In this document: piece after piece, positions 16,349 to 39,752 of the stretch
Layout of the letters: every line of letters starts with the position of its first letter
Position numbering within the stretch: the first letter of the stretch is position 1
From: Myxosarcina sp. GI1
Lineage (GTDB): Bacteria; Cyanobacteriota; Cyanobacteriia; Cyanobacteriales; Xenococcaceae
Length of the DNA: 64,000 nucleotides
NCBI RefSeq assembly: GCF_000756305.1
Contig: NZ_JRFE01000016.1
Coordinates: forward strand, 170,874 to 234,873
Direction of reading: 5' to 3'
Notes under the pieces: generated by a model
What the model saw: the letters and a program-made list of their open reading frames with translations, nothing else
Database searches by the model: none
Told to the model about the DNA's origin: nothing
Translations under genes and position numbers: made by a program

Positions 16349-18139
16349 ATGAACGATCGGCTTTCTTCAGAACAGATAGCTTTAACACAGCATTACAGAG
16401 AAAAATAGACAAAAATAGCTCTCTGTACCGAACGTATAGACTCACAACAGGCGATCGCTGCTATTAAAGCCGCATACTCTGTTAATGGTTTTAAAGAACC
16501 AGAAATCTACATCTGCGAGAGTCCCTACAAAGGAATACAGAAACTAGTCGAACTCGAACAAAGAATTGGAGACTTAGGAGAACGCTTAAATCAAGAGATT
16601 CAGCATCATAATCGTTGGTTTTTTACTAACAATAAGAATGGCTCTCGAACTTTGCAGATTCAACTTCATGAGCATTTCAGTGAACCCTTGAGATATCTTG
16701 GCGAGCTATACCGTTTGATAGAACAAAAGCTTACAAAAAATTTATATTCTACAGAAGAGGAAGAAAACCCAGAACTTCAAGCTTTATCAGAGCGTCTCAC
16801 TACTATGTTTAACGATCCTTCAGTAGATGACGAGCAGAAGCTCACAGAAGGACGGCAAGCTATGGCGTATATAGAAAACATATCTAGAGGAATAATAAGA
16901 CCTCAGCTATTTTACAATAGTATTACTACGAGCAGTCTAGCCGCAGATTATTGTCAGTGGGATTTTTGTTTTTCGGTACTGAAATTGCCTCATCGCCAAG
17001 AAGAATGGGAAACATCTAAAGCTCTACTCAAAACTTGTGGTTGGATTTTTCCTTTTAAAAAAGTTTGCGTAATTTGCGATCGCCCTACCAAAATTTCTTT
17101 AGATGAAAAAAGACAACTACACGCCTCTGGAGAACCCGCCATAGAATTTTCAGACGGTTATTGTGTTTATGCCTATCGGGGAGCTTTGCAGACTGAACCG
17201 CTAAACCCCAAACTAGAGTTGGCTGAAAAATATCAACAAGAAACAAATCCTCGCCTCAGACAAGCGATCGTTGAGAGTTATTCCGTCGAAAACTTAGATG
17301 TGGACTGGCTGTTTATGGAGAGCGATTTTCAAGTTCGAGAAATTCTATTTCAAAAACTAGGTTCAGAGCGAATTATAGCCTCTCTACAGGATTCCGATCC
17401 CTTTGGTTTGCTACCACAAGCCTTAACAGAAGATGCAGGTTCGTTGTTATGGGTAGCTTTTGCCTTGCTGCAAAATCAAGAAGAACCCCGTATTGCTAAA
17501 TTCATTCGCGATTCTTCATCCCCAACCATCAACTTAAAACAGTTGAGAGCTTCTCTGATGAGAGATTCATTAGAAACGATTGTAGCTTGGCTCGAACAAT
17601 ATGCTCCTAACTTCGTTGATGATTTTTTACCTGGTTTAGATGAAGAAGAAATTTCTAGGCGACTCGAACAGCTTCCTTTTAAAGTCCCAAGAGAAGTCTG
17701 TGAACTATATCAATGGCGCAATGGTATAAGTTCCGAACGAATGCTTTTTGTTTATCACGATTTTTTAGAACTAGAGCGTGCCATAGAGCAATCAGAAATG
17801 TTATCCAAGTCTATACCAGAACGCGAACGAGACAACGAGCCTGCTTATCTTTTCCTATTGTTTGAGTTTGAGAGCGAATATTTTGCGGTAGCTGGTGGAG
17901 ACAAGGTTGTAGAGACTGCCCCTGTTTACCACATTAGCGATATTTTTGAAGTAACACTTGTCTTTAACAGCATAACTACAATGATGCTAGCTTTAGCGGA
18001 GAGCTACGAATGTGGATACTATCGAGCAGAAAATCTAGATGAGTTTGGTTCTGTTGATGTCGATTTTAAGCAATTAGCAAGAATTAGACATAAGTATAAT
18101 CCAGGGACAGTTGAGCCTATGTATCTTGAGGGAGAATAA
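16349..18139 (+). pseudogene. SMI1/KNR4-type (DUF6745-like) gene interrupted by an in-frame TAG
   Basis: One continuous frame runs from ATG 16349 to TAA 18137-18139 with a single TAG at codon 20 (16406-16408). The first 19 residues (MNDRLSSEQIALTQHYREK) and the stretch after the stop (TKIALCTERIDSQQAIAAIK) match, from memory, a cyanobacterial family reading REKW-xx-IALSTERID, so the stop sits where Trp is expected. The downstream frame has no ATG, GTG or TTG for about 80 codons, until TTG 16652. The long C-terminal part (about 495 residues) ends in an SMI1/KNR4-like domain (FKVPREVCELYQWRNGI). Such proteins act as immunity or scaffold modules in some bacteria. The remainder is free of frameshifts, so inactivation is recent, or the stop is read through, or a sequencing error exists. 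Confidence 0.75.
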
Positions 18140-18254: not shown

Positions 18255-18521
18255 ATGACTAATAATTCCTCAAAACAACGGATATCAATTACCGTAGATT
18301 CACAGTTGCTTGAAGAAATCGATCGCCTAACCAAAAATCGTTCTGCTGCTGTAGAAGCAGGTTTGCGGTTGTGGCATAAGCAGCAAATTGAGGAACAGTT
18401 AAGAAACTTCTATCAAAATCGTTCCCAGAAAGATATTGAGTTTGAACAAGAGTGGGCGCGATCGACTCAAGAGCAAGCGATCGCCGCTTGGGATGAATTT
18501 TCACAGAAACCTTCTGATTAG
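18255..18521 (+). CDS. Antitoxin, ribbon-helix-helix type
   Basis: The 88-residue protein begins with a short beta strand (QRISITVDSQLLEEIDRL) followed by two helices, as in CopG/MazE-type ribbon-helix-helix DNA-binding antitoxins. The C-terminal half (from about residue 48) is charged and helical (QQIEEQLRNFY, EFEQEWARST) and would bind the toxin. It is three bases upstream of the MazF-like gene, and the toxin ribosome-binding site (GGAA) overlaps its TAG stop. It should neutralise the toxin and repress the operon. Intact. Confidence 0.85.
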   Translation: MTNNSSKQRISITVDSQLLEEIDRLTKNRSAAVEAGLRLWHKQQIEEQLRNFYQNRSQKDIEFEQEWARSTQEQAIAAWDEFSQKPSD

Positions 18522-18524
18522 GAA

Positions 18525-18881
18525 ATGGTTAATAGTGCAAATTTTCCTCGCCAGCGTCAGGTTTATTTATCTAAGGCATTAAAACAATCTGGAGATACAA
18601 AGAAACGTCCTGTAGTAGTAGTGTCAATAGATATTCGCAATCAATATAGTTCAACTGTCTTAGTCGTTCCTTTTTCTAGCAATACTTCTGATGCAGCTAA
18701 TCCCAGTCGTGTCAAGATCGATCGTGGTGAAGGAGGGCTGAATGTAGATTCGGTGGCGATGTGTGATGTTATGACTACTATAGAGAAACGTTACCTAGAA
18801 AGCGATCCTTATGGAGAAATAACTTTGGAATCATTTGCACGTATTCAAAGAGCAATTCAAATAGCGATCGGCATTTTTTAA
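18525..18881 (+). CDS. MazF/PemK-family toxin endoribonuclease
   Basis: The 118-residue protein has the PemK/MazF core: KRPVVVVSIDIRN (beta strand after the first loop), STVLVVPFSS, and DSVAMCDVMTTIEKRYL followed by a C-terminal helix. The family cleaves mRNA at short motifs. The first loop (RQVYLSKALKQSG) is unusual for MazF, which normally opens with GDIYWVxLxP-type sequence; here the start of strand 1 is degenerate (FPRQRQVYLSKALKQ), so specificity or activity may be changed. It pairs with the antitoxin three bases upstream, an intact type II toxin-antitoxin module in a region with decayed genes. Confidence 0.82.
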   Translation: MVNSANFPRQRQVYLSKALKQSGDTKKRPVVVVSIDIRNQYSSTVLVVPFSSNTSDAANPSRVKIDRGEGGLNVDSVAMCDVMTTIEKRYLESDPYGEITLESFARIQRAIQIAIGIF

Positions 18882-18944: not shown

Positions 18945-19187
18945 ATGAAAATAGCCAACATTCACGAAGCCAAAACTCAACTATCCAAATTAATTGAGTC
19001 GGCACTGGCAGGAGAAGAAATTATTATTGCCAAGTCGGGAAAACCTTTAGTAAAACTCATACCTTATCAAGAAGAACCAAAACCAAGAATTCCTGGAGGT
19101 TAGGAAGGCAAAGTAACTATGAGCGATGATTTTGATGATGAACTTCCACCCAATCTATTAGCTGCTTTTATGGATGAAGAAGAATAG
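18945..19187 (+). pseudogene. VapB/Phd-like antitoxin split by an in-frame TAG
   Basis: ATG 18945 to TAG 19185-19187 is one frame (80 sense codons) with an internal TAG at 19101-19103. The first part, 52 residues, is a Phd/YefM-type DNA-binding module (MKIANIHEAKTQLSKLIESA). After the stop come EGKVTMSDDFDDELPPNLLAAF and an acidic end, the usual toxin-binding tail. Family members known to me read PGxWxGKV here, so TAG replaces a Trp codon. An ATG at 19119 is in frame and has GGAAGG at 19103-19108, ten bases upstream, so the 22-residue tail could be made separately. The final TAG shares its G with the toxin GTG start. Either it is a broken antitoxin beside a live toxin, or two peptides together act as antitoxin. 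Confidence 0.75.
19119..19187 (+). CDS. Possible reinitiated antitoxin tail peptide, 22 aa
   Basis: The frame from ATG 19119 encodes MSDDFDDELPPNLLAAFMDEEE. A Shine-Dalgarno-like GGAAGG at 19103-19108 begins on the last base of the interrupting TAG. The peptide corresponds to the acidic toxin-binding end of VapB-type antitoxins. Translation from it is an inference. Confidence 0.35.
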   Translation: MSDDFDDELPPNLLAAFMDEEE

Positions 19188-19564
19188 TGCAACTTCTGTT
19201 AGATACTCATGCTCTGATTTGGTGGTTGAGCAAAAATTCCCGACTATCAACACAAGCCTACCAAGAAATTGCCAATCCTCACAATATAGTTTTTGTCTCT
19301 GCTGCCTCTGCTTGGGAGATAGCCATCAAAAAATATTTAAAAAAACTAGAAGCACCTGACGATCTTGCAGAACAAATCGAAAAGAAAAAATTTCGGCAAC
19401 TTCCAATTACTGTCGAACAAGCTCTAACGGTAGAAAAACTACCACTGCATCATCAAGATCCTTTCGATCGCCTACTAATTGCTCAGGCTAAAACGCTCAA
19501 TTTGACAATTGTTACTCGCGATCGCAAATTCGACTCTTATGATGTCGATCTAATTAAATGTTGA
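19187..19564 (+). CDS. vapC: VapC-type PIN-domain toxin ribonuclease
   Basis: The 125 residues start with GTG, whose G overlaps the antitoxin stop (TAGTG), a classic coupling arrangement. PIN acidic residues are visible: LLLDTHALIWW (Asp near residue 6), ASAWEIAIKKYL (Glu near 44), DPFDRLLIAQA (Asp near 91-94) and LTIVTRDRKFDSY (Asp near 112). This is the VapC/type II PIN arrangement for cleaving RNA. The toxin frame is intact although the antitoxin gene is interrupted, which makes its state biologically important. Confidence 0.9.
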   Translation: MQLLLDTHALIWWLSKNSRLSTQAYQEIANPHNIVFVSAASAWEIAIKKYLKKLEAPDDLAEQIEKKKFRQLPITVEQALTVEKLPLHHQDPFDRLLIAQAKTLNLTIVTRDRKFDSYDVDLIKC

Positions 19565-39123: not shown

Positions 39124-39417
39124 ATGACTGCTACGCCTACAACTATTAGAGAACGTGCAGGTCAAACCGTAAAAGAACTTTATCCTAACTATAAAGTAAT
39201 CGTCCTCAATGATGACTTTAATACTTTCAAGCACGTTGCCGAATGTTTGATGAAATATATTCCTGGTATGAATGGCGATCGCGCCTGGGAATTAACCGAG
39301 CAAATACACAATGAAGGACAGGCAATAGTCTGGGTAGGTCCTCAAGAACAAGCCGAACTATATCATCAACAATTAAGAAGAGCGGGTTTGACAATGGCAC
39401 CGTTAGAAAAGGCGTAA
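39124..39417 (+). CDS. clpS: ClpS adaptor protein
   Basis: The 97 residues have the ClpS fold: VIVLNDDFNTFKHVAECLMKYIPG with the NDDxNT motif that binds N-degrons, and EQIHNEGQAIVWVG. ClpS delivers N-end-rule substrates to the Clp protease (ClpC/ClpP in cyanobacteria). The N-terminal 18 residues (TATPTTIRERAGQTVKE) are extended and basic, as usual. It is 42 bases upstream of the DUF2103 gene in the same direction. Confidence 0.93.
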   Translation: MTATPTTIRERAGQTVKELYPNYKVIVLNDDFNTFKHVAECLMKYIPGMNGDRAWELTEQIHNEGQAIVWVGPQEQAELYHQQLRRAGLTMAPLEKA

Positions 39418-39458
39418 AATTAAATAATTTATTAGTTTATGGCGATCGCCCTTTAGTT

Positions 39459-39752
39459 ATGACTGACTCTTCTGACGGTAGGCTAGTTTGGAATCATTCT
39501 ACTCATCTTCCTGGTTTGATTCCCATTCTAGAAAAGCTAGTTGATTGTGAGGGCATAGGTACTGTTACTCCAGGTAGAATAAAAACCGCTAGAGGTCGCT
39601 CTCCTCATCTAAAACTGAGAGTATCCGTACCGATTAGAGGAGGCTATAAAGTTATCGCTCGTCAGGGTAAGACCGTACAGGAAGTTTTTATTCTCACAGT
39701 ACTAGAACAAAAAGCCTTGGAAAAAGCGATCGCCTCTTTATTAGACTCTTAG
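39459..39752 (+). CDS. DUF2103-like protein, 97 aa
   Basis: The 97 residues include WNHSTHLPGLIPILEKLVD, TVTPGRIKTARGRSPHLKLRVSVPIRGGYKVIARQGKTVQEVF, a sequence I associate with DUF2103 in cyanobacteria and archaea. The start His residues could bind metal. Function unknown. It lies between clpS and the oxidoreductase, 10 bases before the latter, so clpS, this gene and the oxidoreductase may be one transcript. Confidence 0.75.
   Translation: MTDSSDGRLVWNHSTHLPGLIPILEKLVDCEGIGTVTPGRIKTARGRSPHLKLRVSVPIRGGYKVIARQGKTVQEVFILTVLEQKALEKAIASLLDS

Follow-up and report, generated by a model that had tools for sequence, protein, structure and literature searches.

Excerpts from one study (PMC7918605) describe in-frame stop codons as widespread in bacterial genes and as tending to last briefly, and report that many of the genes containing them keep dN/dS values below 1, so that such a stop is not in itself proof of loss of function. 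The gene described here joins two protein families, and for one of these, DUF6745, our literature search found no paper that names it. Members of the other, the SMI1/SUKH-1 domains, elsewhere confer immunity to contact-dependent toxins and serve in regulatory scaffolding in yeast; by analogy with these roles, the intact protein may be an immunity or partner-binding protein.

The gene is located in a 64,000-nucleotide stretch of the Myxosarcina sp. GI1 genome (the window), at positions 16349–18139 on the forward strand, and is interrupted by an amber codon. The most plausible explanation, to which we assign a probability of about 0.78, is a recent nonsense substitution at codon 20 of a chromosomal accessory DUF6745-SMI1/KNR4 gene of this cyanobacterium. 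Ribosomes initiating at the ATG at 16349 would undergo RF1-mediated termination at the TAG and release a 19-residue peptide, and with termination at codon 20 the gene is most likely inactive or nearly so; the frame downstream would still be intact because there has been too little time for it to decay. Three elements of this account are inferred: a true TAG in the strain, efficient termination at it, and a dispensable protein.

The reading frame has 597 codons, counting both the internal TAG and the final TAA, and its translation runs from the ATG through 19 codons to the TAG (16406–16408), followed by 576 open codons and the TAA at 18137–18139. Past the stop there are 81 codons without an in-frame ATG, GTG or TTG, the first usual start codon being the TTG at 16652–16654. 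A preliminary description had noted a single amber stop in an otherwise clean frame and the lack of a usual start for about 80 codons beyond it, and both statements are borne out. Third-position GC is 0.32 before the stop, 0.32 between the stop and the TTG, and 0.31 after the TTG, as expected of one continuous coding frame. When all six frames of the window were scanned for open frames of at least 120 codons whose first usual start is delayed by at least 40 codons, two were recovered: this gene (576 codons, delay of 81) and a 145-codon frame at 39315–39752. The latter was rejected as a second case because an ordinary ATG at 39459 precedes its DUF2103 match, leaving 16349–18139 as the sole frame of its kind of any size in the window. 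A lone defect among 597 codons, a sense codon in its place in relatives and a draft assembly of 76 contigs are what would be seen if the TAG were a sequencing or assembly error and the living strain carried a sense codon and an intact gene. However, the lesion is a substitution and not an indel in a homopolymer, and substitutions are rare as errors in a short-read consensus. Real in-frame stops are also widespread in bacterial genes (PMC7918605), and we regard an error as unlikely.

The stop falls at a near-invariant tryptophan site of the family. BLASTP comparison with 58 loci (L002, L005 and L007–L062; identical local sequences entered once, E-value limit 1, weakest alignment counted 0.053) gave 44 distinct relatives aligned across residue 20, with Trp in 43 and Tyr in one (L015). 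None of these 44 has a stop at the site, and none is a close orthologue. The gene therefore has a premature stop in place of the sense codon of functional relatives, as is characteristic of pseudogenes formed by nonsense mutation, and the alignment check confirms the earlier proposal that the TAG replaces a Trp found in relatives. In a separate alignment (A1) of 28 members, consisting of the window protein and 27 relatives chosen from the fetched loci, the K19-W20 pair is unbroken in all 23 relatives with letters there, the window protein's own W being assumed; two of 29 candidates (L002 and L036) were left out of A1 for longer or repeated architecture.

When the stop is read as a residue, the protein has a DUF6745 (PF20530) match at residues 215–314 (16991–17290, forward strand; profile positions 24–125 of 206, E 1.1e-16) that passes the Pfam cut-off with 61.1 bits versus 27, and an SMI1_KNR4 (SUKH-1; PF09346) match at residues 429–546 (17633–17986, forward strand; E 2e-4) that is under the cut-off, with 22.4 bits versus 25.4. 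The initial label of an SMI1-type gene thus holds for the C-terminal domain, albeit at a sub-threshold score, but the gene as a whole is a fusion of this domain to a DUF6745 module. A further conserved module occupies residues 1–75 (16349–16573, forward strand), as seen both in the BLASTP alignments and in an AlphaFold2 model. Only parts of the model are confident (mean pLDDT 59.7), among them a block at residues 1–70 with pLDDT 76–97, and the stop position is inside the first predicted helix (residues 7–24) of this confidently modelled N-terminal module. Foldseek comparison with the PDB returned nothing at E 0.001 or better, with weak matches to yeast Knr4 (best E 1.9), and a PDB sequence search gave nothing convincing (best E 0.18). 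The protein has no match among NCBIfam profiles, and PADLOC gives one weak match, PDC-M40A (E 0.0029), at residues 404–494 within the SMI1 region.

This domain arrangement bears on whether translation might restart beyond the stop, at TTG 16652 or at a rare start (ATA or ATT), to give a short protein with the DUF6745 core and the SMI1 domain. From the TTG, a 495-residue product without residues 1–101 takes in both Pfam matches, and in the model the N-terminal module (residues 1–75) is parted from the core (about 191–280) by a mostly low-confidence stretch. However, the TTG is about 240 nt beyond the stop, and the KW motif is kept in all 23 A1 relatives with the N-terminal part. By eye, no Shine-Dalgarno-like sequence was seen just 5′ of 16652, although such sequences are not always needed in cyanobacteria. 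We consider a restart improbable, and a little more so than readthrough (see below).

The DUF6745 part is common among relatives, and the fusion is rare. Of the 28 A1 members, 24 match DUF6745 at E 0.01 or better and five match SMI1_KNR4, and there are stand-alone relatives of the SMI1-like domain (L035, L010, L012 and L005). Across the order, matches at E 1e-10 or better occur in 144 of 388 genomes, its own among them; these are mostly in the DUF6745 part, with a few confined to the SMI1-like part. Among the matches listed from the 388 genomes, a single match spanning both parts occurs only in its own genome, which has three other matches, two of them near each other on contig C28. The same fusion is absent from plasmids, where six of 72,556 records match and cover 15–56% of the query.

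The gene appears to be accessory. The PBP-type gene upstream is kept in all 27 genomes of the family, with 69–77% identity at the best-matching place in the other genomes, and we compared stretches centred on it that extend at most about 1.5 kb beyond the PBP gene. In these stretches, fetched for 11 of the 26 relatives, no trace of the interrupted gene was seen, and five of its window neighbours (RHH, PemK, PIN, one more ORF and a kinase) are unmatched in the same 11, which places the gene in a variable stretch by toxin-antitoxin-like genes. Just downstream, window positions 18255–18881 and 19187–19564 encode an RHH/PemK-type toxin-antitoxin pair and a PIN-domain gene; the RHH match is just below the Pfam cut-off. 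We found no close orthologue in the family genomes or in the 388 genomes of the order, and family matches outside its own genome are all partial and at most 44% identical. The closest relative of the C-terminal half (46–48% identity) is in genome G046 (L034:1501–2223, minus strand), and is a decayed fragment with one TAG and one TAA inside, flanked by two long open frames on the opposite strand. Stops are contained in ten of the 149 other matches listed, G046 included, and decay seems common in this family, with the caveat that local matches may overrun a true end.

RF1 is present on contig C25 of this genome in an open frame (524.9 bits versus a curated cut-off of 423.25), and TAG is the terminator in 14 of the window's 46 non-overlapping ORFs with 150 residues or more and in 25 of 99 distinct ORFs from other sampled stretches of the genome, or 39 of 145 overall. 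Reassignment of TAG is unlikely because RF1 is present and TAG is a common genuine terminator; together with the failure to find a CUA tRNA, these observations led us to reject a genome-wide amber reassignment. Rfam gives 57 tRNA hits, and ARAGORN, applied to loci that include every one of them, called no CUA anticodon; it missed two of the hits (C43:31741–31860 and C43:32104–32220), both of them tRNAs with insertions in the array described below. A CUA-loop pattern occurs at 33 places versus 30 for a reversed control, and ARAGORN called no CUA tRNA in 30 of the 33, the other three giving no locus. The predicted RNA structure past the stop is unremarkable (z of -1.30 for 92 nt and -0.22 for 50 nt), and promoter-like and terminator-like matches are near shuffle level.

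These data weigh on the proposal that low-level, perhaps regulated, readthrough of the TAG yields some full-length protein. The frame past the TAG is clean, its own genome has a 14-gene tRNA array, and excerpts from PMC7918605 argue that many bacterial in-frame stops, in genes with dN/dS below 1, are not pseudogenes. In Anabaena, deletion of TrcR, a tRNA array repressor, is reported to raise the activity of a lacZ gene with UAG at codon 8, and other stop codons at this position also gave raised activity (PMC10272220, in part). In contrast, there is no CUA tRNA among those found, RF1 is present, the structure downstream is not unusual, and a stop at this position is absent from all 44 relatives. 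None of the three features by which readthrough could be recognised (a conserved stop, a CUA tRNA or reassignment, and a stimulatory RNA structure) was found, and the functional readthrough suggested in the preliminary description has no positive evidence from RF1, TAG usage, tRNAs or RNA structure. Figure legends in PMC11126739 give means of 0.01–0.80% of wild-type signal for E. coli TAG reporters, and mass spectra in the same source show Tyr, Gln and Lys in place of TAG, not Trp, so misreading probably would not restore the Trp. Readthrough is therefore doubtful, and ranks somewhat below a sequencing error. As to other routes past the codon, it is conceivable that a Lys tRNA could hop from AAA 16403 to AAA 16412, at a cost of three helix residues; stop hopping by tRNAs is the source of this idea. 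If the stop were functionally read through, the gene would offer a natural setting in which to test whether tRNA arrays alter translation in cyanobacteria.

The tRNA array is on contig C43 (C43:31230–32527; L093:9230–10527; minus strand) and resembles the tRNA arrays of other cyanobacteria. It has 14 Rfam hits, 12 of which are called by ARAGORN (His, three Leu, Pro, Gln, Tyr, Ser, Glu, Trp, Met and Cys). One of the two remaining tRNAs (C43:32104–32220; L093:10104–10220; minus strand) is of the Asn-GUU type, its anticodon loop interrupted by a 43-nt palindrome. As a dispersed repeat, this palindrome is also present in the same genome at C19:135517–135560 (93%) and in several family genomes (81–98%), and an uninterrupted Asn tRNA (query 1–33 beside 77–117) is present in relatives within the order, including G179, G228, G276 and G358. 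A new class of tRNA intron was therefore rejected in favour of an inserted repeat, as the uninterrupted tRNA and the palindrome each occur elsewhere. The other (C43:31741–31860; L093:9741–9860; minus strand) has about 50 extra nt with hairpins in the anticodon arm; its anticodon resisted assignment, and no CUA loop was seen in it. A suppressor hidden in the array seems unlikely: there is no CUA among the 12 called tRNAs, the thirteenth is of the Asn-GUU type, and a CUA reading is conceivable only in the last, where no CUA loop is seen. A single anticodon mismatch separates each of the array's Tyr-GUA, Gln-UUG and Trp-CCA tRNAs from reading UAG. A stress-gated switch, in which the gene would be silent normally and UAG would be misread enough to make the DUF6745-SMI1 protein when the array is on, seems to us highly speculative and the least probable of the schemes considered.

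A recent nonsense substitution is favoured because RF1 and TAG terminators are present, no CUA tRNA, downstream structure or stop in a relative was found, and the gene is accessory. The clean remainder of the frame would also be predicted if function were retained through readthrough or downstream initiation, and while a very recent mutation, which the preliminary description listed beside sequencing error and functional readthrough, agrees with the favoured explanation, the clean frame is not proof of it and sets a bound only. Among single substitutions in the 576 codons past the TAG, about 4.4–5.6% would create a stop, and the clean frame allows (95%) up to 52–67 neutral substitutions (3.0–3.9%). 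With frameshifts counted, the bound is 18–31 substitutions (1.1–1.8%), assuming one frameshift per 10–20 substitutions, these indel rates being assumptions. The estimates are upper limits on neutral drift, and 'recent' is thus a bound rather than a measurement. The importance of the locus is small, as one more accessory gene in early decay; its use lies mainly in providing a pseudogene candidate with the correct label and a rare DUF6745-SMI1 fusion.

In comparison with known systems, the gene is similar to the single-nonsense pseudogenes and in-frame stops in the excerpted account of PMC7918605, in having one stop in a conserved frame that is intact elsewhere and in the short life of such states, although it differs in having no close orthologues in which the stop or selection could be compared. 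It shares with the DUF6745 family (PF20530) the N-terminal YREKW..IALSTE..DR module and the DUF6745 core, but matches only profile positions 24–125 of 206 and has a linker and an SMI1-like domain in place of the usual C-terminal part. Compared with the SMI1/KNR4 SUKH-1 family (PF09346), the domain is here fused rather than stand-alone and scores under the curated cut-off, but the 118 residues of this C-terminal domain cover nearly the whole profile (positions 1–123 of 125), and cyanobacteria also have stand-alone relatives of it, one example being L035 with 43% identity.
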